Shown: positions 1,143 to 23,149 of the stretch, piece after piece
Layout of the letters: each line of letters starts with the position of its first letter
Position numbering within the stretch: the first letter of the stretch is position 1
Virus record (IMG/VR): IMGVR_UViG_3300030098_000632
Coordinates: 1,960 to 25,564 of that record
Source: a virus
Direction: 5' to 3' (one strand)
DNA length: 23,605 nt
Made by a program: the position numbers and the translations under genes
The notes under the pieces: model-generated
What the model saw: the letters and a program-made list of their open reading frames with translations, nothing else
Databases searched by the model: none
What the model was told of the DNA's origin: nothing

Positions 1143-2262
1143 TGCGACCACTAGAATCGTTGTAAATCAAGGGGGTACTAGAAGTAGTAAGACTTATTCT
1201 TTAGCACAGTTAATAATCCTTAAAGCTCTACAGGAACAGGGTAAGGTATATACAATATGTAGGAAAACACTACCTGCTTTGAAAGGTACTGCATATAGAG
1301 ATTTCTTTAATATCTTAGAAGAACATAATTTATATAATCCTGATAACCATAATAAATCAGAACTAACTTATAAGCTAAACAACAATGAGATAGAGTTCAT
1401 TAGCGTTGATATGCCTCAGAAAATTAGAGGTAGGAAAAGGCATATACTATGGCTTAATGAGGCTAATGAGTTTAGATTTGAGGATTGGATTCAGCTCAGT
1501 TTAAGAACTACAGAGAATATATATTTAGACTTTAACCCATCTGATCCTTATAGTTGGATTTATGATAATGTAATGAATAGAGAAGATTGTACCTTTATTA
1601 AATCAACATATTTAGATAATCCTTTTTTACCTGATGAAACAATAAAAGAGATAGAAAGACTTAGGGAGTTAGATAGTAACTATTGGAAGATATACGGACT
1701 TGGGGATATGGCTCAACCTACAGAAACTATATTCAGGCAATTTGAGATAGCTAATAATGTACCTACTGAAGCTCAGTTAGTTGCAATAGGAATGGACTTT
1801 GGATATAGTAATGATCCTACAGCAATAGCAGAAGTATATAAATTAAATGATGATTTGTATATTAATGAACTAATATATAGTAAAGGATTAACAAACCAAG
1901 ATATAGCACAGAAGCTAAGAGAACTAAATATAACAAGACAAACAGAAATAATAGCAGATAGTGCAGAGCCTAAATCAATAGAAGAACTACATAGACAAAA
2001 CTTTAATATCAAAGGAGCTAAGAAAGGAGCAGACTCTATTAATATGGGTATAGATGTTTTAAGGCGTTTTAAACTACATATAACTAAGAATAGTACAAAC
2101 ACATTAAACGAATTTAAATACTATAAATGGCTTACGGATAAGAATGGACATATAGTAAATAAACCTGCTACTAACCAAAAGGATCACATTATAGATGCTG
2201 TTAGATATGTTGCTTTAAATAAGCTAATGACTAACTATAGTGGACAATATTACATATTATAA
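1093..2262 (+). CDS. terL: Terminase large subunit
   Basis: The ATP-driven motor and nuclease that packages phage DNA. The ATPase half has a PBSX-type Walker A (GGTRSSKT, residues 27-34) and Walker B (ILWLNE, 118-123). The RNase H-like nuclease half has D235 in MDFGYSNDPTA, D289 in IIADSAEPKS, and D364 and D368 in DHIIDAVRY. The 389-residue length is typical of the family. The frame has no ATG before the Walker A motif. It opens after a TAG at 1087-1089, and the only common start codon is TTG at 1093, inside the small-terminase gene. An ATG at 1142 is in another frame and stops within eight codons. The protein begins about 26 residues before the Walker A, as expected for relatives, so the TTG start is believable. 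Confidence 0.95.
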   Translation: MRSLNLQGTVVLQKNLNATTRIVVNQGGTRSSKTYSLAQLIILKALQEQGKVYTICRKTLPALKGTAYRDFFNILEEHNLYNPDNHNKSELTYKLNNNEIEFISVDMPQKIRGRKRHILWLNEANEFRFEDWIQLSLRTTENIYLDFNPSDPYSWIYDNVMNREDCTFIKSTYLDNPFLPDETIKEIERLRELDSNYWKIYGLGDMAQPTETIFRQFEIANNVPTEAQLVAIGMDFGYSNDPTAIAEVYKLNDDLYINELIYSKGLTNQDIAQKLRELNITRQTEIIADSAEPKSIEELHRQNFNIKGAKKGADSINMGIDVLRRFKLHITKNSTNTLNEFKYYKWLTDKNGHIVNKPATNQKDHIIDAVRYVALNKLMTNYSGQYYIL

Positions 2263-2287
2263 ACGATTATTAACTAAATATATATAC
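2260..2287 (+). promoter_or_regulatory. Candidate phage promoter P1 (tail block)
   Basis: TAAAC at 2260-2264 and TATATAC at 2281-2287 are separated by 16 bases. The C of the second box is followed by TATTAAA and then the ATG at 2295. The first box overlaps the large-terminase stop codon. The same two boxes with 16-17 base spacing stand before three other gene clusters. If transcription starts about 7 bases after the second box, the mRNA would be leaderless. Promoter function is inferred. Confidence 0.6.
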
Positions 2288-2294
2288 TATTAAA

Positions 2295-2891
2295 ATGGGA
2301 AAAGAAAAAGTAAGCATTGAAATACCCACTACTTGGAATGACATAAGTATCAAGATGTATAACAAGTTTGAAAGGTTAAAGAAAAGGAAAAAAAAGTTAG
2401 GGGAGCAAGAGTTTAATATACAAGTGATTTGTATTATTTGCGATATTGAAAGAGAGATGTTGGAAAGAATGGAGGTTAAGGATATAAACAAAATAGCTAA
2501 AGAGTTAAGATTCTTAATGTCATCACTACCAAACACAGATCGGCTACAAAAGAAAGTAGAATGGAATGGAAAGAAGTATGGATTTATTCCTAACCTTAGT
2601 GAGATAACAATGGGAGAGTATATTGATATTGAAGAATATTGTAAGGAAGCTCATAAGAACATACATAAGATAATGAGCATATTATATCGCCCTATTGAAA
2701 AAGAGAGTAGTACAAGATATAAGATAGAGCCTTATAGTCCAAATGAAGAAATAGAGGAATCCTTTTTAGACTTCCCAATACTTCCCTCAATGTCAGCATT
2801 GAGTTTTTTTTTTCGTTTAGGGAGAAAACTACCAATCGCTTCAGTCAGATATTTGAGAAAGGAGAGGCAAAGATTGAGGGTAAAACGCTAG
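2295..2891 (+). CDS. Tail assembly chaperone, short form (G-like)
   Basis: A 198-residue protein in the unshifted frame. It has a short basic N-terminal region, an ICIICDIERE helix, and a stretch near residue 90 (KYGFIPNLSEITMGEYID) followed by ILYRPI. I associate this pattern with tail-assembly-chaperone-type proteins of Bacteroidota phages. Such chaperones coat the tape measure during tail assembly and are absent from the finished virion. The last 25 residues, after the T10 run at 2804-2813, are arginine-rich and look non-native, while the -1 frame continues with well-formed protein. The usual two-product arrangement (lambda G and GT) is therefore likely. This is the first gene after candidate promoter P1. 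The tape measure is about 6 kb downstream rather than next door, which is unusual. Confidence 0.65.
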   Translation: MGKEKVSIEIPTTWNDISIKMYNKFERLKKRKKKLGEQEFNIQVICIICDIEREMLERMEVKDINKIAKELRFLMSSLPNTDRLQKKVEWNGKKYGFIPNLSEITMGEYIDIEEYCKEAHKNIHKIMSILYRPIEKESSTRYKIEPYSPNEEIEESFLDFPILPSMSALSFFFRLGRKLPIASVRYLRKERQRLRVKR

Positions 2892-3067
2892 AGGGTAAGT
2901 GGGGTTGGTATAATGTTGTATTTGCTTTAGCAAATAATGATATATTAAAAATAAAGAAAGTAACAGAATTAGAGTTTTATTTAGTATTAACCTACTTATG
3001 TTACCAACAAGATAAAGAAAGTGTAAAGAATAATAATTATGGTAACATTAAAAAACATAATAGATGA
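2295..3067 (+). CDS. Tail assembly chaperone, -1 frameshift form (GT-like)
   Basis: If ribosomes slip back one base on the T10 run at 2804-2813, residues 1-173 of the short form are joined to 84 further codons read from 2813, with the stop at 3065-3067. The product is 257 residues. The extension contains NRFSQIFEKGEAK, then KWGWYNVVFALANNDILK and VTELEFYLVLTYLCYQQ. This is a helical, aromatic-rich segment I recognise as the second half of such chaperones. It explains the 147 bases between 2892 and 3038 that would otherwise be empty. The -1 frame is open from about 2745, and the +1 frame stops at once (TAG), so only a -1 shift works. The alternative is a homopolymer sequencing error within a single long gene; either way the extension is coding. 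Confidence 0.72.
2804..2813 (+). promoter_or_regulatory. T10 slippery site for -1 frameshifting
   Basis: Ten consecutive T residues fall at the end of the overlap between the chaperone frame and its -1 extension. In the zero frame they are read AGT TTT TTT TTT CGT, so two phenylalanine tRNAs can re-pair perfectly after slipping one base back. No obvious downstream pseudoknot was found by eye. Confidence 0.65.
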
Positions 3068-3551
3068 TTTTAGCAATATAGCTACTAATCATTATTTAAT
3101 AAACTCCTTTCATTCAGGATTCTTAGATGAAGTAGATATAAACAAATTAGATCAGGCTGACTTTCCAATACTTTACTGTGAGCCAGGTACAGCTACTATT
3201 GATATGGGAGTATTAACATACTCATTTACGATTTTTGTTTTAGATGTGCTTAAAGAAGATTTAACAAACAGAAATGCAGTATGGACTAATACGCTACAAA
3301 CAACACAAGATGTAGTTGCTGAATTTAGACAGAACTTAGCTTTACAAACATCAGGTGGAGATAGTGGTAAGAAGTTTAGCTATGTACCTGATGAAGCTGT
3401 TTTAGAGCTACCAATAAGTACAGAGCCATTTACTGCAAGATTTGCTAATATTCTTACAGGTTGGAGTACATCAATGTCAATACAAGTAAACAACGCTAAT
3501 AACCTCTGTAATGCTCCTATAGAGCCATCAGATAATAATCCTAATACATAA
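3039..3551 (+). CDS. Putative tail terminator/completion protein
   Basis: A 170-residue acidic protein. Features include DFPILYCEPGTATIDMGVLTY at about residues 41-61, then FVLDVL and VWTNTLQTTQDVVAEFRQNL, and a C-terminal ILTGWSTSMSIQVNN followed by NLCNAP. The pattern is two beta-rich parts around an amphipathic helix, with a size like small tail-terminator or neck proteins. I recognise the sequence type from structural clusters of Bacteroidota phages but not a proven function. The start lies 29 bases inside the frameshift extension of the chaperone gene. The stop codon overlaps the next ATG (TAATG), so the two genes are probably translationally coupled. Confidence 0.55.
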   Translation: MVTLKNIIDDFSNIATNHYLINSFHSGFLDEVDINKLDQADFPILYCEPGTATIDMGVLTYSFTIFVLDVLKEDLTNRNAVWTNTLQTTQDVVAEFRQNLALQTSGGDSGKKFSYVPDEAVLELPISTEPFTARFANILTGWSTSMSIQVNNANNLCNAPIEPSDNNPNT

Positions 3552-4162
3552 TGGCTGTAAGATTAAAATTAAGGAGTCCTGATGGTAAATATGTAAGAGG
3601 AGAAGTTAAACACTTAGAGAAAGCCTTAACAAGTTTTGGTTCTAATGTTATTAAAGAGGGTAGAAAGATATTAAATCAAAAGAGCAAAAGAACACAGGCA
3701 AATACTTTGTTTAATGATTATCACTACAAAATGAAAAGCTCAAGTAGTACAATTACTTTTGGCTTTGAGTTTGGTAGAGCAAGTGATTATTGGGAGTTTG
3801 TCGATCAAGGTGTTGTTGGCGTGGGTGGTTTTAAAGGTAGTGGAAATGCAAGAGGGGGAGCAAGTCCTTTTAAATTTAAATATGCTAATCCTGGAGGAGA
3901 TATGGTTAATGCTATTAAAGGTTGGATTAAGAACAAGCCTGTTAGTTTAGGGGATAGCAATATAAATAGTGCTGCTTGGGGAATAGGATATAGTATAAAA
4001 AGGCGTGGATTAGAAAGGACAATGTTTTATAGTAAGCCTGTGAATAAAGCCCTTAGAACGCTTCCTAACGAACTTACAGAAGCCTTTAGATTAGACTTAG
4101 AGAAGTTAGTGGGTAAATTACCAAATACAATAAAAATAAAAGAAGAAGATTTAAACTTTTAA
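3551..4162 (+). CDS. HK97 gp10-like tail completion/neck protein
   Basis: A 203-residue basic protein. The central segment YWEFVDQGVVGVGG, then SPFKFKYANPGGDMVNAIKGWIKNK, followed by AAWGIGYSIKRRGL and TMFYSKPVN, follows the layout of HK97 gp10/minor tail Z-type proteins. In those, a helix-rich start leads to a Y-x-FVexG motif, a glycine/serine loop and an R-R-G helix before TxFf. Such proteins sit between head and tail or finish the tail. Placement next to a terminator-like protein supports this. Beginning with TAATG, it shares bases with the stop of the preceding gene. Confidence 0.6.
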   Translation: MAVRLKLRSPDGKYVRGEVKHLEKALTSFGSNVIKEGRKILNQKSKRTQANTLFNDYHYKMKSSSSTITFGFEFGRASDYWEFVDQGVVGVGGFKGSGNARGGASPFKFKYANPGGDMVNAIKGWIKNKPVSLGDSNINSAAWGIGYSIKRRGLERTMFYSKPVNKALRTLPNELTEAFRLDLEKLVGKLPNTIKIKEEDLNF

Positions 4163-4165
4163 GAA

Positions 4166-5593
4166 ATGGCGTATACAATAGAACAGAAACCAAATCAATT
4201 AGCAGGAGCAAATAGCCCTATGGTGTTTGTATTAAAAGAAGATAGCCCTGCTATATATAATGCAGATAAATTTAGATATATAGCACAAGTATATATTAGT
4301 ACAACAGATGCTTCTACTTGGGTAGAAAGAGCTAAAATAAAAATACATAAAAATAGTGCAGATGTAGGAATAGTAGATGTTCATAAAATAGTTAGAAGCT
4401 ATTTAGAAACACAGGAAAAAAATGTAGGAAATCAAGAAGCAATAGCAGGTAGTATTCATTCTATAGGCATATCAGATACAAGTAATTCTTATTCACAAAA
4501 TACAAGCCAAGTAGTAGGTGTTAAATTAGTAGGTGGTTATGAAAAGGCTTCATCTGCTACCGCTGCTCCTGAAGAAACATTAACCTTAGCTAATACAATA
4601 ATATACTCTATTCCTGCATCTACTCCTTATACAGATACAGGAACAAATGTAGGTGGGTTAGATTACATTATAACAAGTCCATCTAGTAGTAACAATCCTT
4701 TAACAAACTATATACCTAGTGGAGCTACAAAGAAGTTTTTAACTAATGCTCCGAGAGTTCAATTTGTTAGAGGTAGTAGCACAGCAGCAGATAATGTAGA
4801 TGAGCTAACAATAGCTTTTATAAATAAAGGATTGGTTACTGATGGAGATGCTTTAGTAAAGATGGCTATTGAATATTACAATAGCGCAGGAGGGCAAATA
4901 GGATCAACTAAATACTTTACTAATGATACAGGTAGTGGTGGTAAAGCTACCGCTGATGATGTTAAAAATAGTTTGTTATATTTTGGTTGCGGTACAGCTA
5001 ACTTAGAAAATCAAGTAGATGAGCCTGACAATCAACCTAGTGAATTTGCAGATTGGGCGTATTATGTTATCTATGGAGCAGATGGCTCAGGAAACCAAGA
5101 AACAGATAAATATTATTTCTATAGATATGGGGCTACAAGAACAGGTGTGGATGATAGACATCAAAGTTGTACAAGATATGATAATGTTAGACTTGCTTGG
5201 CGTAATAGATTAGGAGCTTGGGATTATATGAACTTTAGAGGCAAATCAACAGAAAGCGTAGACATAACAAGAAGTGATGCAGGTAGCGTTCCTGGTACTT
5301 GGGATAGTGCTACATTTACTTACAATAATTGGGATAGAGGTAAAAAGACTTTATATACTGAAGCTACAAGAAAACTAACTATAAATAGTGATTGGCTTAA
5401 TCCTGATGAGGGGGTTTGGTTAGAAGAACTATTTACATCTACTAATGTACAAATATTAGCAGATGATAATGTGGTATATCCTGTAGTAATAACAGATAAA
5501 AAATACACTAAAAAAACAAGTGTAAATAACAAGATCAAAATACAATATACAGTTAATTTAGAATACGCTAATAAAGTAAGAACAAATAGCTAA
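4166..5593 (+). CDS. Tail structural protein, possibly distal tail/baseplate
   Basis: A 475-residue protein without a signal peptide or membrane segments, rich in Thr, Ser, Asn and Tyr, as in beta-rich virion proteins. The N-terminal part (FVLKEDSPAIYNADKFRYIAQVYI, then DVHKIVRSYLETQ) looks like a beta-sandwich. The C-terminal part has NVRLAWRNRLGAWDYMNFRG, then TRKLTINSDWLNPDEGVWLEEL and ends in a beta-rich segment. This W-x-N-x-x-G-A-W-D-x-x-x-F pattern recurs in large tail proteins of Bacteroidota phages. Lying before a 1074-residue tail protein and the tape measure, it is probably a tail tip or tail-associated protein. A major tail protein is the main alternative. The stop overlaps the next start (TAATG). 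Confidence 0.55.
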   Translation: MAYTIEQKPNQLAGANSPMVFVLKEDSPAIYNADKFRYIAQVYISTTDASTWVERAKIKIHKNSADVGIVDVHKIVRSYLETQEKNVGNQEAIAGSIHSIGISDTSNSYSQNTSQVVGVKLVGGYEKASSATAAPEETLTLANTIIYSIPASTPYTDTGTNVGGLDYIITSPSSSNNPLTNYIPSGATKKFLTNAPRVQFVRGSSTAADNVDELTIAFINKGLVTDGDALVKMAIEYYNSAGGQIGSTKYFTNDTGSGGKATADDVKNSLLYFGCGTANLENQVDEPDNQPSEFADWAYYVIYGADGSGNQETDKYYFYRYGATRTGVDDRHQSCTRYDNVRLAWRNRLGAWDYMNFRGKSTESVDITRSDAGSVPGTWDSATFTYNNWDRGKKTLYTEATRKLTINSDWLNPDEGVWLEELFTSTNVQILADDNVVYPVVITDKKYTKKTSVNNKIKIQYTVNLEYANKVRTNS

Positions 5594-8500
5594 TGGACAC
5601 GAGATTAGTAGTATATAGAAAAGATACATCAGGAGCAACAACTGATACCGCTTTTGAATTAGACTTAGATAAAGTTCCTAATATTAGAATCAACTATAAT
5701 TGGTTAGACATAAAAGAGCCTGATCAAAGAAAGTCTAATTTTAGTCAAAAAATAAAACTCCCATTCACTAATAGAAACAATACATTTTTTGAGAATTGGT
5801 TTGATGTTAATTTAGACACTTTGGTTTATAATACTAAGACTAAATTTAAGGCGGTAATATTAGTAGATACCATTCCTCAATTAGAGGGATATATACAACT
5901 TAAAGCAATTTATTTAAATGCAAGAATTTATGAGGTTGTGGTATTTGGAGATACTGCTAATTTCTTTGCTGATATTAAGAATAAAAAATTAAGAGATACA
6001 TTTATAAATGCTGATGGCGTAGTAGATAGACAGTTAGATCATTTTAACACAGCACAAAATGTAGTTACAAGTTGGACTACAGGACTAACCACAGTAGAAT
6101 CAACTACTACTAATGATGTAATGTATCCTGTTATAGATTATGGACACACCCAAATGCCTACCTCTGAGGCTATGTTTTTCTCTCCTAACACTATAGAAGC
6201 GATTACAAGTGAATCTACAACTTTTAATGACACTTTAAGTATGTTAGGAGCTGTAAGAGTAGGAGATTTAAAACCTGCAATAAGAATACAGAAGCTACTA
6301 TATATGATAATTCAAAAGGCAGGGTATAGTATTAAGAGTAGTTTTTTTGGATTAGATGATACAGCAGGAACTCCTGTTACAGATACTCAATGGTTTAGTA
6401 GATTATTTATGACTTTATCTCCTCAATTTTCAAAGGTAAGAACTAAAGTATTTGGTGATTTTAGATATACTTGTAATTCACAAGATATAGTATCTAATGA
6501 TGCAGGAGGATATTACTTAGATGCTCCTAATTGGAATACAGTTGTATATGATCCAAGTGGACTGTGGAGTACAGGAACAGATAATACTTTTACAATTACC
6601 TATAACCCTGATACTCCTAATGTTTTACCTACTGATTATATGTATATATCTATAACAATGGATATAAGTTTTGCTACCCAAGACTCAGGTGGTAATACTA
6701 TAGATACTTGGAATATATCCTCAAGATGGGAGTCGCAGGATCAATATTTTACAATAGTAAACCAAGACTATGATTCACAGATAGCTACTCAAAACAACTA
6801 CCAATATACTTATAATACACTACTCCCTGTTGGAGTTAGTCAAACCTGGCAATTTCAATTTTTTGTAAATAGCTATGATATAGTAGGAGCAAATACCGCT
6901 ACATCTACTTTAAATTCAGCAAGTATACAGAGTTTAAATTTAGGAGAATCAGCTTATACCAATGGTAATGTAAATGCTGAGATTGTAATGGCGGAGAATA
7001 TGCCTGATATAACACAAGCTGACTTTGTAAAAGACTTGGTAAATAGATTTAACTTAATAGTACAGGTAGATAAAGACAACCCTAAAATGCTATTAGTAGA
7101 GCCTTATCAGGACTTTATAGATACAGGTGTAACAAGATATTGGACAGATAAACTAGATATATCTAAAGAGCAAGTAGTTAAATCTACTAATGAGATACAA
7201 AGTAAGCAATTAAAATTTACTGACTTAGAGGATAAGGATTATTTTAATAATAGCTACATAAAAAAATGGAACGCTGTTTGGGGTAGTAGATTAAATTTTA
7301 ATAGAAATGATTTTGCTCAAAAAGACTTTACTAATTTTAGTATATACTCTCCCTTTATAGCTAATGGATTAATGGGAGGTAATGGAACAGAATCACAAGT
7401 AGCTGTAGCAAGTATATTTGAAATACAGGAAAACGATCAAACAAGAAAACCTATTGATGGTGGTAAACCTAAGTTATTTTATTATAGCGGTACTCCTATA
7501 TCAATATCAGGAACTGATGGATTAGATGTTGCTTATGACTTTAGAATATACTCAGGAGTATTAACCACACTTGGTAATACTGAGGCTTATAGCACAGGTA
7601 ACACCTTTCCTTTATGTACTCAATATAATTTAGATTCTTTAACTGCAATAACATCTTCCACAAAGATTGTAAGTTGGGATTACTATAATCCATTTTTCTC
7701 TACAGGATATACAACGCCTGTATTTGGGAATACAGTAAGTTTGCACGGATTTTATTATGATTATTGGGCAAGTTATATAAATGAGATATATAGTGATGAA
7801 GCAAGGATAATGGAGTGCAATTTAAATTTAAATGAGCAAGATATATTTGATTTTAATTTTGCTGATACTATTTATATAAAAAATACATTATGGAGAGTTT
7901 TGAGTATAGACAATTATGTTGTAGGTGGTAAAGAAACTACTAAAGTCAAGCTGATTAAAGTAATATCTAAACTAGCTTATGAATGTGATGTAATGCCTTA
8001 TGAATTTAATGAGAATGGAACAATAACATTTGTTGATCCTGAAAATCCAACAGGTGGCTCAGTAACTGTAACAAATGCTTGTTGTGAAGATATAGATAGT
8101 TCCTGGACTTTTGAACAAACAAATAATACTACAGGGGTTGGTACTTGTTATCATAATTTAAATAATCCTACAAATCCACAAGATACAGGAAATACTGATG
8201 CAGTAGTGGGTTTTAGTAATGTTGAATCTATTGGTTTTGGTAACAACCAAATACCTTTACCTATGCCTGTAATTGGCTCTACTGAAAACACAATACTAAA
8301 TAGAGGTTATGGCTCAGTACAGTCAAGCACATTCTATATGTATGCAAATACTTATGATAATACTGTTGCTAATTTTTTAGTAAATGGTATTGATCGTAAA
8401 ACTTTAGCTATACCCCCTAACACTATGGGTAGTATTGAAATAGAGTTAATAGGAACAGTACAAATAGATACAGATACTCCTGCAAATGTTAGCAAGGTTG

Positions 8501-8817
8501 GTTATTATAATTATACAACTTTATTAAAAAATATACAAGGAACAAACTCAGCAATAGGAACAGCAGGTGGTATATTAACTAAGTCTAATGCAGATAGTGG
8601 CTTTCCTACTCCCACAGCAGGATTTACAACATTTAATAATGACTTATGGACTCCAACAATACAAGTATCAGGAGAGCAACAAATAGGGTGGGTAGCTAAA
8701 GTAAAGATATTACTACAGCCTATACCACAAGACAGCTCACAATTTAGGAATTTAGCAATATATCAAAATGGAGATGGTATATTGTTCCAAGACATAAATA
8801 GATTAGAATGGAATTAA
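5593..8817 (+). CDS. Large tail protein, hub/baseplate-type candidate
   Basis: A 1074-residue protein, the largest in the window. The N-terminal section (LDLDKVPNIRINYNWLDIK, then NFSQKIKLPFTNRNNTFFENWF) is a pattern I associate with big tail proteins of Bacteroidota phages. Around residues 470-560 a segment reads DFVKDLVNRFNLIVQVDKDNP, then LVEPYQDFIDTG and YWTDKLDISKEQ, resembling a hub-type domain. The last 250 residues, after a CC pair near residue 830, are asparagine- and threonine-rich and beta-like, perhaps a receptor-facing or trimerising part. There is no enzyme motif. Its position between the 475-residue protein and the tape measure indicates a tail tip or baseplate component. Confidence 0.55.
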   Translation: MDTRLVVYRKDTSGATTDTAFELDLDKVPNIRINYNWLDIKEPDQRKSNFSQKIKLPFTNRNNTFFENWFDVNLDTLVYNTKTKFKAVILVDTIPQLEGYIQLKAIYLNARIYEVVVFGDTANFFADIKNKKLRDTFINADGVVDRQLDHFNTAQNVVTSWTTGLTTVESTTTNDVMYPVIDYGHTQMPTSEAMFFSPNTIEAITSESTTFNDTLSMLGAVRVGDLKPAIRIQKLLYMIIQKAGYSIKSSFFGLDDTAGTPVTDTQWFSRLFMTLSPQFSKVRTKVFGDFRYTCNSQDIVSNDAGGYYLDAPNWNTVVYDPSGLWSTGTDNTFTITYNPDTPNVLPTDYMYISITMDISFATQDSGGNTIDTWNISSRWESQDQYFTIVNQDYDSQIATQNNYQYTYNTLLPVGVSQTWQFQFFVNSYDIVGANTATSTLNSASIQSLNLGESAYTNGNVNAEIVMAENMPDITQADFVKDLVNRFNLIVQVDKDNPKMLLVEPYQDFIDTGVTRYWTDKLDISKEQVVKSTNEIQSKQLKFTDLEDKDYFNNSYIKKWNAVWGSRLNFNRNDFAQKDFTNFSIYSPFIANGLMGGNGTESQVAVASIFEIQENDQTRKPIDGGKPKLFYYSGTPISISGTDGLDVAYDFRIYSGVLTTLGNTEAYSTGNTFPLCTQYNLDSLTAITSSTKIVSWDYYNPFFSTGYTTPVFGNTVSLHGFYYDYWASYINEIYSDEARIMECNLNLNEQDIFDFNFADTIYIKNTLWRVLSIDNYVVGGKETTKVKLIKVISKLAYECDVMPYEFNENGTITFVDPENPTGGSVTVTNACCEDIDSSWTFEQTNNTTGVGTCYHNLNNPTNPQDTGNTDAVVGFSNVESIGFGNNQIPLPMPVIGSTENTILNRGYGSVQSSTFYMYANTYDNTVANFLVNGIDRKTLAIPPNTMGSIEIELIGTVQIDTDTPANVSKVGYYNYTTLLKNIQGTNSAIGTAGGILTKSNADSGFPTPTAGFTTFNNDLWTPTIQVSGEQQIGWVAKVKILLQPIPQDSSQFRNLAIYQNGDGILFQDINRLEWN

Positions 8818-8984
8818 AAGATATTAAAACATTAGGGGGTATAATACCAGGAGTATTAAAAATAGTTACTAAACACGAACTACCTGAAAAGGAATTTGAT
8901 TTTGTTTATGGACAAGAAGAATATACTACAGACTTTAATAAATTAAAAAAACAATTTAAAAGATTATGGCTAAAAAGAAAATAG
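8808..8984 (+). CDS. 58-residue hypothetical protein
   Basis: A short gene bridging the large tail protein and the tape measure. It starts at ATG 8808, inside the last codons of the upstream gene, and stops with TAG at 8982-8984, inside the start of the tape measure. The product begins MELKDIKTLGGIIPG and ends in a basic segment (KKQFKRLWLKRK). It fills 148 bases that would otherwise be empty. Overlap on both sides is the normal packing of this genome, which supports it being real. A mixed charged sequence without membrane segments gives no function; a small tail-assembly factor is possible from position only. Confidence 0.6.
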   Translation: MELKDIKTLGGIIPGVLKIVTKHELPEKEFDFVYGQEEYTTDFNKLKKQFKRLWLKRK

Positions 8985-11212
8985 ATATAGAATTAAATGT
9001 TAAAACAGGTAAAGCTGCAAAAGATTTAAAAAATGTTGATGAGGGGTTAAAAGGAATTGGTGGAGCAGGACAGTTAGCAGGTAAAGGCTTTAAGATTATG
9101 GGTACTGCTATGAAAGCAGCAGGTATAGGGTTGATAGTAACTTTATTTGCTAAGTTAGTAGAACAGCTACAAAAGAATCAGAAGTTTATGGACGCTATGA
9201 ATAAAATATTTTTAGCGTTAGAGCCTATCTTAATTGCTGTTGCAGACACTATTGCTTTTTTAGTAGATGGTTTAGCAAATTTACTTGGAGCAACTTTGAG
9301 TACTATATCAGGAACAGAAGATATGTCAGAGGCTTTAGTAAAACAAAGAAATGAAGTAAGATTATTAGAGGCTGAATTAGGGTTATTGCAGTTACAGTAT
9401 CAACAAGAAGCTGAGTTAATGCGGCAAATTAGAGATGATGAAAGTTTAAGTATTCAACAAAGAATAGATGCAAACCACGAATTAGGCAAAGTATTAGAAG
9501 AACAATTACAGCACGAAAGAAGTATAGCTATAGAAAGTTTAAATCTTGCAGAAATAGAATTAGCAAGAAATAAAGATAATGTAGATTTACAAGTTGCTTT
9601 GTTAGATGCTAAAACAAAATTAGCTGAAATAGATGAAAGAATAACAGGACAAAGATCAGAGCAGTTAGTAAATCTAAATTCATTAGAAAGAGAAAGAAAA
9701 ACACAGCAAGAAGAAAATGCAAAGATTAGGGAGCAACAATTACAGGAAGAAGCTAAAATGCTACAAGAGTTAATTGATTTGCAGAATGAAGATATAAAAG
9801 TAAAGAAAAAAGCAAATAAAGATTTAAATACACAATTTGAAAATGCAGAAGAAGCAAATGCAGAACTTATAAAGCAGAAAAAAGAGCAAATGAAAGCAGA
9901 GTTAGATACCCTTGATGCAAGTGTTAAAAACGCTAAAGCTAATATAACTACTCAAAAAGAACAGACACAAGCATATAAAGATGAAATAGAGGAAAGAAGT
10001 AAATCTGATAAAGAAATAGCAAAACAAAATGAAAAAATAATTAAAGAAGAACTAAAACTTTTTAGAGATAATGAAAGAATTTTTAATATGTCTTTTAAAA
10101 ATGCTTCAGAACAAGCAAATTCTAGATTAAATCAAGCTGACCGTTTTAACAATTTAATGAAAAATATGAATCTTCAAAACATAGAAGATGTAGATAATTT
10201 TATTGAAAAAATGAAAGAGGAACAAAACGCTATTATCAGTCATATGAAAACTGATGATGATTTTACAGAAGGTTCAATACAAGGTATGCAAAGAAGATTT
10301 GATTCTCAGCTTGAAATGATAGAGGTTTATAGAAATAATATAGAAAGAAAATTAGTAGATACAAGTGAAAATATTAATGCTATAACAGAGGAGCAAATAG
10401 CAACTTCTGAACAAAGTGCAGAAGCATCAGAAAATATAATTAATAATTCTGCTAATAAAAGAATAGAAATAGAAGAAAGATATGCAAAAGAAATAGAAGA
10501 ATTAGAACAAAGTTTGGTTACTACTAAAGATACTCTACAAAATCAAGCAGATGATGAATTATTTTTACACTTTGAAACAGCACAAGAAAAAGAGATTAGA
10601 TTAGCTACAGAAAAATATGATAAACTTATAGGTTTAGCTCAGGGTAATGCTGAGGCAACTGAAAAACTAGAACAAGAAAAAGCTGATGCTATAAACGAAA
10701 TAAATACAAGGGAGCAAAGACAAGCATTTAAAATGATGAGAGATAGGATTGCTCAGATAAGAAAGGAAAAAGAATTAGAAAAACAATTAGAAAGACAAGC
10801 AGGATTAGAAACTTTACAAATGGGTATGGATCTTGCTAAAGAGGGTACTGCTACTTTTAAAGCTGTTGCAAGTGCTGAAACTATTATGGCTACTTATATG
10901 GGAGCAACTAAGGCTATGGCTCAAGTTCCTTTTCCTTTTAATTTTGCTCAAGCAGGTTTAATTATAGCAACAGGTATAAAGAACTTAGCAGAAATTAGTA
11001 AGACTAAAGTACCTGGTGGTGGTGGTGGTGGTGGAGGCTCTATGCCTGATACTGTTACTGATGTTGGTGGAGATATGACAGGAGATGTTCCTGCAATAAC
11101 ATTTGGAGATGCAGGTAGTGATGTTCCCCCTGTTCAAGCGTATGTTGTAGAAACAGATATTAGTAATGCTCAGGCTTTACAAAGTGAGCTTGATTTACAA
11201 AGTACCCTATAA
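8966..11212 (+). CDS. Tail tape measure protein
   Basis: A 748-residue protein that sets tail length and is thought to pass through or line the tube during DNA injection. The N-terminus is basic and glycine/alanine-rich. Hydrophobic segments lie at about residues 44-64 and 81-110. They are followed by roughly 450 residues of charged, heptad-like coiled coil rich in E, K, Q and A. Near the C-terminus is a small hydrophobic part (PFNFAQAGLIIATG), then eight consecutive glycines at 684-691 (encoded from 11015) and an acidic tail. At the usual 0.15 nm per residue the tail would be roughly 110 nm, typical of a siphovirus. The stop codon doubles as part of the promoter-like TAAAC box for the head block. 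Confidence 0.9.
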   Translation: MAKKKIDIELNVKTGKAAKDLKNVDEGLKGIGGAGQLAGKGFKIMGTAMKAAGIGLIVTLFAKLVEQLQKNQKFMDAMNKIFLALEPILIAVADTIAFLVDGLANLLGATLSTISGTEDMSEALVKQRNEVRLLEAELGLLQLQYQQEAELMRQIRDDESLSIQQRIDANHELGKVLEEQLQHERSIAIESLNLAEIELARNKDNVDLQVALLDAKTKLAEIDERITGQRSEQLVNLNSLERERKTQQEENAKIREQQLQEEAKMLQELIDLQNEDIKVKKKANKDLNTQFENAEEANAELIKQKKEQMKAELDTLDASVKNAKANITTQKEQTQAYKDEIEERSKSDKEIAKQNEKIIKEELKLFRDNERIFNMSFKNASEQANSRLNQADRFNNLMKNMNLQNIEDVDNFIEKMKEEQNAIISHMKTDDDFTEGSIQGMQRRFDSQLEMIEVYRNNIERKLVDTSENINAITEEQIATSEQSAEASENIINNSANKRIEIEERYAKEIEELEQSLVTTKDTLQNQADDELFLHFETAQEKEIRLATEKYDKLIGLAQGNAEATEKLEQEKADAINEINTREQRQAFKMMRDRIAQIRKEKELEKQLERQAGLETLQMGMDLAKEGTATFKAVASAETIMATYMGATKAMAQVPFPFNFAQAGLIIATGIKNLAEISKTKVPGGGGGGGGSMPDTVTDVGGDMTGDVPAITFGDAGSDVPPVQAYVVETDISNAQALQSELDLQSTL

Positions 11213-11238
11213 ACAAAATATTAACAAATAATATATAC
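11210..11238 (+). promoter_or_regulatory. Candidate phage promoter P2 (head block)
   Basis: TAAAC at 11210-11214 and TATATAC at 11232-11238 have 17 bases between them; the ATG at 11246 lies 7 bases after the second box. Over the 28 bases ending in ATG, this copy is identical to P1 at 24 positions with no gaps. As in P1, the first box overlaps the stop codon of the preceding gene. Confidence 0.6.
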
Positions 11239-11245
11239 TATTACA

Positions 11246-12253
11246 ATGGCTGAAAAAAAGATAAAAAAAAGATTAGTAGAATTAATCATAGATGAACAAT
11301 CAGAAAGATTTGGCGTTGAAGCTATAAGTCTTGTTGAATTTCCTGCGATAGAAGAAAATTGGGTTTTTTTCAATAAAGACAATTTCCTATCCTTAGCAAA
11401 ATTAGATGAAGAAAAGAAAACTCTTGTAGGAGCTGTACTTATTCCTGAAAAAGAAATACCTAGATACGATCAAGAATTAAACGAAGAATACATAGTATAC
11501 TTTAGTAAAGAAACTATTAAACAAGCTCAGGAGCTATTTATGAGTAGTTTAAGAAACAATAACGCAACGTATGAACACAAAGTACCAATTGAGGGTTTAA
11601 GCGTTGTAGAGAGCTGGATTAAAGAAGATGAAAAATTTGATAAATCATCACAATTTGGATTTGAAAATATGCCTCTTGGAACTTGGTTTGTAAAAATGAA
11701 AGTTAATAATGATGAAGTATGGGATAAAGTAAAGAATAAAGAAGTAAAAGGATTTAGCATAGAGGGGTACTTTACAGATAAATTAATAGAGGCTTCTAAA
11801 AAGAGAGCATATAAAGATATAGAAAATAAAATAGCTGTTGTAGGAGCTTTAGATGGAGAGCCATTGTTTGCTACTAAAGAAGAAGCTGAGGCATACGCTA
11901 AGTTATTTAAGAATTGCGAGGGTTATCACGAACACGAAGTAGAGGGAGTAATTAGATATATGGCTTGTGAAAAACATTCAGATGCTACTGAAATGAAAAA
12001 AAGAAAATATAAAAGAAAAAAGATATACACAAAAGAAGACAGATTAAGTGATGAGGATTTGTTAGATAGAATTAGAATGATTATAGCTCAGGATGAGAAA
12101 GACCAATTTGAGCTAATGAAAGAATACATTACGAAAAGGGCGTTAGCAAAATATCCTTGGAAACAATGTATCGCTGATATGAAAAAAAAGTATGGAGAAA
12201 AATCTGCTGCTAAAATCTGTTCAGCTATTAAAAGTGGTACTGTAAAAAGGTAG
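11246..12253 (+). CDS. XkdF-like prohead protease
   Basis: A 335-residue protein with the layout of the XkdF/S78-type head maturation peptidase: an LVEFPAIEENW segment near the start, then LVGAVLIPEKEIPR, a probable catalytic histidine H111 in ATYEHKV, and a probable catalytic serine S171 in VKGFSIEGYF. After the protease are two add-ons. One is a GYHEHEVEG segment with MACEKHSDAT. The other is a small C-terminal domain at about residues 302-335 (KYPWKQCIADMKKKYG, then AAKICSAIKSG), a module I have seen on other phage head proteins. The enzyme would cleave the scaffold and capsid precursor during head maturation. The following genes are exactly those substrates. Confidence 0.85.
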   Translation: MAEKKIKKRLVELIIDEQSERFGVEAISLVEFPAIEENWVFFNKDNFLSLAKLDEEKKTLVGAVLIPEKEIPRYDQELNEEYIVYFSKETIKQAQELFMSSLRNNNATYEHKVPIEGLSVVESWIKEDEKFDKSSQFGFENMPLGTWFVKMKVNNDEVWDKVKNKEVKGFSIEGYFTDKLIEASKKRAYKDIENKIAVVGALDGEPLFATKEEAEAYAKLFKNCEGYHEHEVEGVIRYMACEKHSDATEMKKRKYKRKKIYTKEDRLSDEDLLDRIRMIIAQDEKDQFELMKEYITKRALAKYPWKQCIADMKKKYGEKSAAKICSAIKSGTVKR

Positions 12254-12257
12254 CCTG

Positions 12258-12286
12258 TAAACAAATATTAAATTAATTATATATAC
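12258..12286 (+). promoter_or_regulatory. Candidate phage promoter P3 (scaffold/capsid)
   Basis: TAAAC at 12258-12262 and TATATAC at 12280-12286 are separated by 17 bases. The ATG at 12305 lies 18 bases downstream, preceded by CTATTACA exactly as in P2. A predicted transcript would have a leader of roughly 11 bases. Confidence 0.55.
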
Positions 12287-12304
12287 TTATAAAAATCTAT
12301 TACA

Positions 12305-12958
12305 ATGAAAGACACGTTAGAAAAAATCAAAACTTTGTTGTCTATTGATAACAAAGAATCTAAGGAAGTTAAAATGTATGCAGAGATGAAACTAGATGAT
12401 GGGAGGGTTGTAGCTACCGAAGATGAGCAATTTATGATTGGCTCTGAAGTCTTTGTAGTAAATGATGATGGCGAGGCAAGTCCTTTATCAGCAGGATCAT
12501 ATACTATGGAAGATGGAGCTAAACTTACTATTGATGACAATGGTAAAATCTTAGATATGGGAGAAGAAAAAGAAGCTGAGGATGTGGAAGCATCAGAAGA
12601 AGTAGAAGAAATGCAAGAAGAAGCAGATGTTGCTGATTGGGCAGGTATGGAAAAGAGAATTAAAAATCTTGAAGATGCTGTAGCTGATTTAAAAGCAGAT
12701 AAAGAAAATATGTCTGTAGAAAATGAAGAAACAGTTGAAGAAGAAGTTTCTGAAGAAGAAAAAGTAGAAATGTCTAAAGATATGGTTACTAGCTTAGTAG
12801 AAGAAATAGAACACTTAAAAACTAAGTTATCAGAAATGGAAGAACAACCAGGAGCTGAGGGTTTTACTCACAATCCTGAACAAACTAAGTCAGAAAAAGC
12901 TGATTTAGCAAAGATGTCAGTTAAAGAAAGAACTGCATATTACATTAATAATAAATAA
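12305..12958 (+). CDS. Scaffold-like acidic head protein
   Basis: A 217-residue, strongly acidic protein between the protease and the major capsid protein, the standard place for a scaffold. Residues about 27-80 form a possible beta domain (KLDDGRVVATEDEQF, VFVVNDDGEASPLSAGSY). They are followed by long glutamate-rich helices (about 85-185) with heptad-like spacing, and a C-terminal basic, helical end (MSVKERTAYYINNK), which in scaffolds often contacts the shell. No enzyme motif is visible. Scaffolds guide shell assembly and are removed by the protease. The call comes from composition, coiled-coil character and position; a capsid-decoration role for the N-terminal domain is an alternative. 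Confidence 0.7.
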   Translation: MKDTLEKIKTLLSIDNKESKEVKMYAEMKLDDGRVVATEDEQFMIGSEVFVVNDDGEASPLSAGSYTMEDGAKLTIDDNGKILDMGEEKEAEDVEASEEVEEMQEEADVADWAGMEKRIKNLEDAVADLKADKENMSVENEETVEEEVSEEEKVEMSKDMVTSLVEEIEHLKTKLSEMEEQPGAEGFTHNPEQTKSEKADLAKMSVKERTAYYINNK

Positions 12959-12974
12959 TTTTAAAAATAAAAAA

Positions 12975-13952
12975 ATGGCGAATAAATATAATTTAAGCAA
13001 AGAATATCAGTTTGATATTGATGTTTCAGCGTACACTTCGTATGCTGGTAAATTAGCATTACCTTATGTAACTGCAGCAGTTAAGAGTCCTGACACTATT
13101 GCAAAGGGTTATGTTAGAATAATAGATGGACTAAATAAATCAGCAAGAATTACTAATCTAGGTATTAATGATCCTGTAGTTGCTGCAGGTTGTTCATTCT
13201 CATCAAGTAATGATACTTCTCTTACAGAGCAAGTTCTTACTCTTACTGACTTAAAAGTAAATGAGGAAATATGTAGAGGTACAGTATTCCCTACTTGGAT
13301 TGGAGAAAATATGGATAGAAACGGAAACCTACCAGGAACTTTCTCAGATTTCTTATTAGCTTCTATTGCAGCTAAAGTTGGAGAATCTTTAGAGAACTCA
13401 ATGTGGAAAGGCTCAGCTATATTTGGAACAGGTTTCCAATCAAATGATGGTACTTTAGATGAAACAGGAGCAGATGCTTCAGCTTGTAAAGATTTCTTTG
13501 AAGTTGATTTAGATGGAGCTATTTCTACTGTTGATATATTAACTGACTTAGGAGCAGTTTATAATTCTGTTGTAGCTAACGCTTCAGGTATGTTAAGTAA
13601 ACCAGGTTTTGGATTTTATATGAATCAAAAAACTTACGCTATATATGCTCAAAAATTAGCTGCTGAAACTACTTACCAACAAGTCGGAGCTGCAGGTACA
13701 TTTACAGGATTGACTTATATGGGATTCCCTATCTATGTTTGTCCAGGTATGTTTAATGACACTATTATAGCTACTTATCCTGAGAACTTAGTAGTAGGTA
13801 CTAACTTAGCTACAGACTACACAGAAGTATCTTTGATTCCTACATATCAGTATGATGGCTCAGATAATGTAAGAGTTGTTATGAACTTTGCTATGGGTGT
13901 ACAAACTGCAGTACCAACAGATGGAGTATTTGCAACTTCAGTTTGGAGCTAG
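12975..13952 (+). CDS. Major capsid protein
   Basis: A 325-residue protein, the expected size for an HK97-fold shell subunit without a long delta domain. Features include a helical middle (FSDFLLASIAAKVGESLENSMW), a central domain with GFYMNQKTYAIYAQKL and TYMGFPIYVCPGM, and a C-terminal strand-rich segment (VRVVMNFAMGVQTAV). These match the general layout of phage major capsid proteins, including the late hydrophobic G-x-P-I-Y-V motif. It follows the protease and scaffold and is directly followed by a strong terminator, as expected for a highly expressed gene. The ATG at 12975 follows a run of A residues. Confidence 0.85.
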   Translation: MANKYNLSKEYQFDIDVSAYTSYAGKLALPYVTAAVKSPDTIAKGYVRIIDGLNKSARITNLGINDPVVAAGCSFSSSNDTSLTEQVLTLTDLKVNEEICRGTVFPTWIGENMDRNGNLPGTFSDFLLASIAAKVGESLENSMWKGSAIFGTGFQSNDGTLDETGADASACKDFFEVDLDGAISTVDILTDLGAVYNSVVANASGMLSKPGFGFYMNQKTYAIYAQKLAAETTYQQVGAAGTFTGLTYMGFPIYVCPGMFNDTIIATYPENLVVGTNLATDYTEVSLIPTYQYDGSDNVRVVMNFAMGVQTAVPTDGVFATSVWS

Positions 13953-13968
13953 TAGTTAATTAATTAAT

Positions 13969-13993
13969 GGGGGTTGAAATATACCCCCTTTTT
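13969..13993 (+). terminator. Intrinsic terminator after the capsid gene
   Basis: A GGGGGT/ACCCCC stem (13969-13974 with 13983-13988) encloses an 8-base loop and is followed by T5 at 13989-13993. It ends the head transcript 17 bases after the capsid stop codon. GC-rich runs are rare in this AT-rich genome, so the hairpin stands out. Confidence 0.85.
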
Positions 13994-14018
13994 ATAAACA
14001 ATATAAAACTTATATAAA

Positions 14019-14621
14019 ATGGCTTGTAATTTAACAAAAGGTTTAGCAGTTGATTGTAAAGATCAGATTGGAGGCTTAAAGAGAATATTTTTTGTAAAGT
14101 CTTATTGTTCTGATATTAGAGCTAAAGCTACTTTTGATGGTACAGATGCTTTAGTTATGGACACAGCAGGTTTTGCAAGTTGGGATATTCAAGATGGTGG
14201 AGCTGTAACTGTATTTCAGTATGACTTACGCCCAAATCTATCTTCAATGACTGTTAATATTAATAGTGATCCTGCAACAGGAACTACTTTTTTTGAGCAA
14301 ACTTTGTCTCTTACACTACAGAAATTAAATGTAACACAAACAAACGAGTTAAAGTTAATCTCTTATAATCGTGCACAAATATTTGTACTTGATAATAATG
14401 ATAATTTATTCTTATTAGGTATGGATAATGGGTGTGATATTTCAGGTGGTACGGCTGTAACAGGAGCTGCAAAAGGTGATATGTCAGGATATACTTTAGA
14501 ACTAAGGGCAGAAGAAAAAGACCCAATGATTTGGATTAATGCAACTGCAGGACCAGGAACAGCTAAATATCCATTTGATGGATTGACTGATGAGGCTGCC
14601 TTGACTATTACTACAGGATAG
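14019..14621 (+). CDS. Virion structural protein, tail tube candidate
   Basis: A 200-residue protein beginning MACNLTKGLAVDCKDQIGG. It continues with alternating hydrophobic strands, a segment TTFFEQTLSLTLQKLNV, then NRAQIFVLDNNDNLFLLG, GCDISGG, and GYTLELRAEEKDP. I recognise this sequence type as a common structural protein of Bacteroidota phages. The strand pattern and the LDNNDNLFLLG hairpin fit tail-tube-like folds. It stands alone between two intrinsic terminators right after the major capsid gene, which would suit an abundant virion protein such as the tube. It could instead be a capsid-associated protein. No promoter with the TAAAC-N16/17-TATATAC spacing precedes it, so it may rely on read-through from the capsid transcript. 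Confidence 0.6.
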   Translation: MACNLTKGLAVDCKDQIGGLKRIFFVKSYCSDIRAKATFDGTDALVMDTAGFASWDIQDGGAVTVFQYDLRPNLSSMTVNINSDPATGTTFFEQTLSLTLQKLNVTQTNELKLISYNRAQIFVLDNNDNLFLLGMDNGCDISGGTAVTGAAKGDMSGYTLELRAEEKDPMIWINATAGPGTAKYPFDGLTDEAALTITTG

Positions 14622-14649
14622 TATTAATAAATCGTTACTCAATTAAAAT

Positions 14650-14676
14650 AGGGTTATCTAAGGATAGCCCTTTTTT
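14650..14676 (+). terminator. Intrinsic terminator
   Basis: A nine-pair stem with one G-U pair (AGGGTTATC at 14650-14658 with GATAGCCCT at 14663-14671) has a TAAG loop and is followed by T5 at 14672-14676. It separates the single structural gene from the next block. Confidence 0.9.
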
Positions 14677-14729
14677 ATTAAATAAATTTTATAATTAACT
14701 AAATAGTATAAAGTTTTTTTTACAAAACT

Positions 14730-14737
14730 TACATTTG
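14730..14737 (+). promoter_or_regulatory. Host-type -7 box
   Basis: TACATTTG fits the Bacteroidota -7 consensus TAnnTTTG exactly and lies in the gap after a terminator. No clear TTG -33 box was found at the usual distance. A 7-base inverted repeat (AAGTTTT/AAAACTT, 14711-14730) lies directly upstream and could bind a regulator. The box directly abuts the phage-type element P4. Confidence 0.4.
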
Positions 14738-14765
14738 TAAACGAATTAATTATATTTATATATAC
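14738..14765 (+). promoter_or_regulatory. Candidate phage promoter P4 (portal block)
   Basis: TAAAC at 14738-14742 and TATATAC at 14759-14765 are separated by 16 bases, with CTATTA following the second box as in P1 and P2. The ATG at 14784 is 18 bases downstream, the same distance as in P3. Standing directly after a terminator, the element is where a promoter is needed. Confidence 0.6.
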
Positions 14766-14783
14766 TATTAAAAGACAAATATT

Positions 14784-14987
14784 ATGGCTTGGAAAGTAAA
14801 AGAACAATACAAAGATTATAAACCAATAAATATGAACTTGGCTTATGGACAATTAAAGCCTCATCAAATAAATAATTTAAGTGATGAAGTAAAAGAGAAG
14901 TATTTTGAACAAGATACTCCTAAACCAAAAAAGAAAAAAAAAGAAGTTAAAATAGAAACAGATTCTTATAATGAGTACACAGACTAA
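14784..14987 (+). CDS. 67-residue hypothetical protein
   Basis: A short, charged protein beginning MAWKVKEQYKDYKPI. A helical middle (LSDEVKEKYFEQ) leads to a very basic run (KPKKKKKEVK) and an acidic end. No membrane segment or known motif is visible. It is the first gene of the portal block, behind candidate promoter P4. In many phages a small gene at this position belongs to head-tail joining, but nothing in the sequence proves that. The adenine run encoding the lysines does not appear to be a frameshift site, because the other frames stop quickly. Confidence 0.65.
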   Translation: MAWKVKEQYKDYKPINMNLAYGQLKPHQINNLSDEVKEKYFEQDTPKPKKKKKEVKIETDSYNEYTD

Positions 14988-15108: not shown

Positions 15109-15718
15109 AGCAGATTTCGTATTATTCCCTTTTACACAAAACTATTTATGGTTTTATGAAAACCTAAATGCTTATGTAGATTTACCATCTTCTACTTTTT
15201 GGATTGTGTTAAAATTTACAGGAAGAAATAATAACTATCAGCGATCAATTATAGCACGACCTACAAATGCAGACTTTTCAAGCCCTGTATACGAAAGTAA
15301 TGATAGATATGTTAAATTTGGTTGTACTGTTTATATGCCTAAATGGACAGGCACACAAACTATGGATATATCAGGTAATAAATACACAGGTAATGTAGTA
15401 TTGCCTACAAAAGACATATACGACATTAAGGTTTATTACTCTACTTCGCTTGAAATAGATACTGATGATTCTGATGTAACTTTAATACCTGAAATAAAAC
15501 CTGTTTTACTTTGTACTGATGAGAATAGGGATATAGTCACAAACTCATCTAGTTGGGCAAGTTATTTAAATCCTGCTTTTGTTTCTTATAACCCTTATAC
15601 AACAAATGATTTGACTGAGGTTGAGATGACTACTTTAGGTAAACCTGCTTCAGCTTCAGTAGATAATAGAGATGCTCAATATGGCGTACAAACTTGGACT
15701 CCTAATTATACCAACTAA
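15101..15718 (+). CDS. Hypothetical probable virion protein
   Basis: A 205-residue protein rich in Tyr, Thr, Asn and Ser with alternating hydrophobic strands (FWIVLKFTGRNNNYQRSIIA, VKFGCTVYMPKW, IYDIKVYYS). There is no signal peptide, membrane helix or enzyme motif. The composition suits a beta-rich structural protein. It overlaps the 45-residue gene upstream and shares bases with the portal start (TAATG). A head-associated role is inferred from position only; I do not recognise the family. Confidence 0.6.
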   Translation: MYKADFVLFPFTQNYLWFYENLNAYVDLPSSTFWIVLKFTGRNNNYQRSIIARPTNADFSSPVYESNDRYVKFGCTVYMPKWTGTQTMDISGNKYTGNVVLPTKDIYDIKVYYSTSLEIDTDDSDVTLIPEIKPVLLCTDENRDIVTNSSSWASYLNPAFVSYNPYTTNDLTEVEMTTLGKPASASVDNRDAQYGVQTWTPNYTN

Positions 15719-23141: not shown

Positions 23142-23149
23142 TATATTTG
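23142..23149 (+). promoter_or_regulatory. Host-type -7 box
   Basis: TATATTTG matches the Bacteroidota -7 consensus TAnnTTTG. It lies 27 bases before the ATG at 23176, in the gap after the late operon. No good TTG -33 box is visible at normal spacing. Confidence 0.5.

Follow-up and report, generated by a model that had tools for sequence, protein, structure and literature searches.

We identified a repeated two-box element, TAAAC-N16/17-TATATAC, before four gene clusters of a marine Bacteroidota phage in the window, i.e. the whole stretch of 23,605 nucleotides analyzed here. At a probability of roughly 0.8, these elements are late promoters, with box 1 as the -35 and box 2 as the -10 element, read by the host core RNA polymerase together with an ECF-like sigma factor that would be encoded by the phage itself. 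The first-pass annotation had suggested that a sigma factor, either alternative or encoded by the phage, may recognize the element as a late promoter, and the sequence comparison lends support to this suggestion through the corresponding sites in related phages and a syntenic sigma-like gene. Transcription control in Bacteroidota phages has been little described; the outcome of the present analysis is a set of four predicted start sites and one named candidate sigma factor.

The pattern has four exact matches in the window, all on the plus strand, at the coordinates and with the spacings between the boxes (16, 17, 17 and 16 for elements 1 to 4) given in the first-pass annotation. The window holds no other exact match on either strand.

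2260..2287, plus strand: element 1 (putative late promoter), TAAAC-N16-TATATAC, ahead of the first tail gene, which starts at 2295
11210..11238, plus strand: element 2 (putative late promoter), TAAAC-N17-TATATAC, ahead of the protease gene, which starts at 11246
12258..12286, plus strand: element 3 (putative late promoter), TAAAC-N17-TATATAC, ahead of the scaffold/capsid cluster, which starts at 12305
14738..14765, plus strand: element 4 (putative late promoter), TAAAC-N16-TATATAC, ahead of the portal cluster, which starts at 14784

The chance expectation for the exact pattern in the window is 0.08, and four matches were reached in 0 of 100 dinucleotide shuffles, a comparison with shuffled sequence that had been named as a check. 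The whole record of 25,564 bases likewise contains exactly four exact matches and none of the reversed control pattern. Similarity among the four elements reaches slightly beyond the boxes (TRTAAAC[AG]A and TATATACTAT). With two mismatches allowed, the window pattern gave 14 hits versus 9.6 expected, so that near-exact copies alone are informative in this AT-rich DNA; relaxed matching was dropped because AT-rich chance hits swamp it. The host TAnnTTTG promoter was also rejected as the identity of the element. Box 2 (TATATAC) differs from this -7 box, as had been recognized before.

As originally described, each element stands before a cluster start. The start codons that follow are at 2295, 11246, 12305 and 14784. 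Box 1 overlaps the stop codon of terL at element 1 and that of the tape-measure gene at element 2. The surrounding genes and signals are as follows.

2295..2891, plus strand: first gene of the tail cluster (ORF; phrog_32199, without assigned function)
11246..12253, plus strand: prohead protease gene (ORF, family match to Peptidase_S78_2; S78-type)
12305..12958, plus strand: putative scaffold gene (weak phrog_24921 match; position before the major capsid gene)
12975..13952, plus strand: major capsid gene (MCP), without an element of its own
13969..13988, plus strand: terminator-like hairpin and T run, directly 3' of the major capsid gene
14650..14671, plus strand: terminator-like hairpin and T run, between the capsid cluster and element 4
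14784..14987, plus strand: 67-aa gene heading the portal cluster (ORF)
15718..17904, plus strand: portal gene (family match)

The hairpin at 14650-14671 lies ahead of element 4 and is the terminator that one of the elements had been said to follow.

A capsid search in IMG/VR yielded 80 related loci. The related set comprises about 36 uncultured phages, and sites were counted over 37 genomes. An alignment of the DNA upstream of orthologous genes showed that nearly all relatives have a two-box element at the corresponding positions: it precedes the first tail gene in 28 of 37 genomes, the protease gene in 34 of 37, the head of the portal cluster in 17 of 19 and, as the fixed pattern, the scaffold gene in 29 of 36, with a GTGAACAA...AATATTTAT form in others. 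The element was found before the MCP gene in none of 37 genomes and before the portal gene in one of 35, and it is almost absent from 18 other gene starts checked in 37 genomes. The proposed search of relatives thus returned the same four late-gene starts and almost never any others. A motif shared before structural gene clusters and nearly absent elsewhere is what would be expected of late promoters read by a phage sigma factor. The only other recurrent match stands before g20628 (10 of 19 genomes), inside coding sequence. This site and those near the sigma gene were left uncounted, because they lie in coding sequence and may reflect coding conservation.

On 26 long contigs the joint pattern gave 105 forward and 0 reverse matches, compared with 1.6 expected on both strands. 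Records of about 27-30 kb with exact terminal repeats were taken as complete genomes, which the repeats make probable. In these genomes the element again marks the four starts, and the minus strand has no copy; the fixed pattern finds three or four copies per genome, and some genomes have an extra site near the sigma gene. Most relatives carry TATATTTAT instead of TATATAC as box 2, so that a literal search with the window pattern would miss them. As an outside control, TAAACN16-17TATATACTATTA was scanned over 2.9 million viral contigs (IMG/VR), which gave 86 stretches. In the relatives, 47 of 48 exact matches have an open-frame ATG 33-36 or 46 nt from box 1, compared with an ATG at a fixed offset for 2 of 38 exact matches in unrelated contigs. 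The pattern is frequent by chance in AT-rich DNA and is fixed to gene starts only in this phage group. We left a scan of the collection for AAAACAA-N14/16-CGTTAATA unused, since the matches listed were mostly single and scattered. In the window's clade, the early region contains a fifth element-like site (TAAACA...TATATATATTTATAAAA), which precedes a 70-aa gene (L086:7530, L095:7526, L105:7498, L108:7522 and L111:7541); the window's record ends before such a site.

The first-pass annotation had recommended looking for a sigma-like gene elsewhere in the genome. An ECF-sigma-like gene is indeed located just left of the window, between a VRR-NUC nuclease gene and the terminase genes.

Record positions 850-1386 (G000/L005), about 0.6 kb left of the window: candidate sigma ORF, 178 aa

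This ORF has region-2-like and region-4-like stretches. Ten Ns immediately before the window start (L005:1950-1959), between the sigma gene and the window, indicate that the record is a scaffold joined there; on other contigs the sigma-like gene and the late-gene region occur together. A homologue was found in 26 of the 35 relatives searched, and the nine records without it are all below 23 kb in length. Every near-complete relative has a syntenic gene for an ECF-sigma-like protein of ~175 aa, and a separate search with the ORF gave 40 loci in which the same synteny and elements recur. The presence of such a gene in the element-carrying genomes is likewise expected of late promoters served by a phage sigma factor.

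The TIGR02937 sigma70-ECF model was matched by 27 of 28 family members (best E-value 1.7e-9, the record's own 0.0068), with nearly full-length alignments that include region 2 and a best score of 37.5 bits, below the curated cut-off of 42.9. Twelve members matched a PHROG RNAP sigma family (best 2e-7), and a Pfam search gave no Pfam call for the family. Its best-supported part is the C-terminal helix-turn-helix. AlphaFold models consist of two helical domains connected by a low-confidence linker. Fold searches with these models return mainly ECF sigma factors (TM up to 0.85 for the sigma-4 domain), with E-values versus the PDB that are not significant on their own; given these weak global E-values, we name the protein ECF-like. 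No relative of the family was found in bacterial genomes, and tblastn of two family members against the phage collection gave no match. In clade 2, an element-like site is located in a coding region upstream of the sigma gene, at a distance of 108-142 nt in L116:1754 and G005:26244 and of about 110-140 nt with G008:25338 included; it could reflect autoregulation or a coding coincidence.

The two boxes differ in their conservation. Box 1 keeps its AAC core throughout, with [AT][AG]AAC at nearly all sites, whereas box 2 is clade-specific (TATATAC/A versus TATATTTAT). In 10 genomes with a sigma protein at least 62% identical to that of the window phage, box 2 is TATATA(C/A/T); with a sigma protein of at most 54% identity it is TATATTTAT at nearly all sites, with few exceptions, clade and box type being confounded by common descent in this comparison. 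Box 2 changes together at separate sites of one genome, which argues for a single trans-acting reader.

The only named phages with a recognizable capsid relative are the cultured Nonlabens phages P12024L and P12024S (MCP 25% identical). Both carry a gene annotated as 'Sigma-70 region 2' that adjoins VRR-NUC upstream of terL, and each has seven AAAAC-N16/17-CGTTA sites, which are not annotated as promoters in either record. The ATG is always 33-34 nt from box 1.

Positions 145, 2997, 5378, 22057, 24738, 25977 and 27578 of P12024L (L203): AAAAC-N16/17-CGTTA sites

ECF promoters are marked by a -35 element with AAC and a -10 element with CGT (PMC8103513). Judged by their sequence, the sites of P12024L/S match this textbook AAC/CGT promoter. 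In the window phage and its relatives the AAC is present as well (box 1 [AT][AG]AAC; AAAAC in P12024L/S), whereas the CGT is found in P12024L/S only, box 2 of the window phage being TATATAC. In both groups VRR-NUC and a sigma gene stand in synteny ahead of terL, and box 1 and its distance from the ATG are the same; the groups differ in the number of sites (seven versus four) and in box 2 (CGTTA versus TATATAC). An hhalign comparison of the sigma-like family with P12024L gp35 gave no significant similarity; synteny together with shared ECF matches suggests the link between the two.

From these comparisons we infer recognition by the phage sigma factor, late timing, the start sites and leaderless mRNAs, and we propose the following mechanism. 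Host sigma-A would transcribe the early operon from a TAnnTTTG promoter.

23142..23149, plus strand: TATATTTG, host-type -7 box (TAnnTTTG), probable early promoter of the next cluster

The phage sigma factor would be made near the end of this operon and would then turn on four late transcripts (tail, protease, scaffold-capsid and portal-lysis), with box 1 (WRAAC[AG]A, here TAAAC) and box 2 (TATATAC in this phage) acting as the -35 and -10 elements, respectively. ECF promoters have AAC at -33 to -31 and a spacing of 16-17 nt. If the AAC of box 1 also occupies -33 to -31, position +1 would fall on or beside the A of the ATG at elements 1 and 2. Since most sites have their start codon at a distance of 33-36 nt from box 1, we predict that several of the late mRNAs lack a leader.

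About 2295, plus strand: predicted start site of element 1, on the A of the ATG
11245-11246, plus strand: predicted start site of element 2
About 12293, plus strand: predicted start site of element 3, leader of about 12 nt
About 14773, plus strand: predicted start site of element 4, leader of about 11 nt

Leaderless messages make up about 5.5% of those mapped in the flavobacterium F. psychrophilum (PMC9723704). Leaderless late mRNA, if true, would be unusual for the phylum.

In an alternative that we regard as unlikely, box 2 is recognized by host sigma-A and box 1 by a DNA-binding activator of the phage, namely the sigma-like protein, similar to the MotA-like middle promoters of T4. Box 2 of most relatives, TATATTTAT, is indeed one base off the host TAnnTTTG, and the prominence of the helix-turn-helix in the sigma-like family would suit an activator. 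However, both the TATATAC of the window clade and the CGTTA of P12024L are un-host-like, box 1 has the AAC core and the spacing of an ECF -35 element, and the alignments to ECF models cover almost the full length of the family, region 2 included.

It is also improbable that the promoters are served by an alternative (ECF) sigma factor of the host and that the phage gene has some other role, even though flavobacteria possess several ECF sigma factors and one motif class with a CGT -10 box (PMC9723704): box 2 changes jointly at separate sites from one phage clade to another, along with the phage gene, and all near-complete relatives have retained this gene. Finally, the near-constant distance to the start codon would be in line with a signal for translation or RNA processing ahead of the start codons instead of a promoter. 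Since the element is missing from almost every other gene in these operons and is found at cluster heads, once directly behind a terminator, we consider such a signal very improbable.

The proposed system would not be without precedent, as ECF-like sigma factors are already known from phages. Those of phiEco32 (gp36) and 7-11 direct the host polymerase to structural genes (PMC4331800, PMC7881722, PMC5312081), and a homologous sigma factor has been termed ECF (PMC7881722). The system proposed here is similar in that a phage sigma factor would serve structural-gene promoters. In contrast, the phiEco32 / 7-11 consensus is a single extended -10-like TAATGTATA, whereas two boxes with an AAC -35 are present here, and phiEco32 and 7-11 are different phages, C3 podophages of enterobacteria. 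Bacterial ECF sigma factors have only the sigma-2 and sigma-4 domains with a linker of under 50 residues, an architecture that the candidate may share. The AAC in the -35 element (PMC8103513) is common to the promoters of both; the promoters differ in that the CGT is kept only in P12024L/S. The form in Bacteroidota phages with two-box promoters appears to be new, and a literature search largely without subscription journals found no paper on such promoters.

We see about an even chance that a family of marine Bacteroidota phages relies on an ECF-type sigma factor of its own for the switch to late AAC-N16/17 promoters, which produce several leaderless mRNAs, and that sigma factor and -10 box co-evolved between clades. 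In that case CGTTA, TATATTTAT and TATATAC would form a natural series for reading a change in ECF -10 specificity. With box 1 conserved and box 2 switching between clades, such a change in sigma-2 specificity becomes testable, and P12024L/S on Persicivirga sp. IMCC12024 provide a cultured test system.

The primary promoter of the Bacteroidota host, with its TAnnTTTG -7 box, probably drives the early operon of the window phage; the late elements differ from it by the missing TTTG and by another upstream box. Of 34 genomes, 15 have a TAnnTTTG within 330 bp after the gene at the 23142-23149 site, where 0.22 would be expected by chance per 330 bp. A further host-type TAnnTTTG box, TACATTTG at 14730-14737, lies immediately next to box 1 of element 4, and the close relatives L027, L028 and L036-L038 retain it. 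Together with element 4 it possibly forms a tandem early plus late promoter. In L042 and L043 (the latter also labelled G013), a hairpin-like GTAATAGTG...CACTATTAC insert is located between element 4 and the g14784 ortholog.
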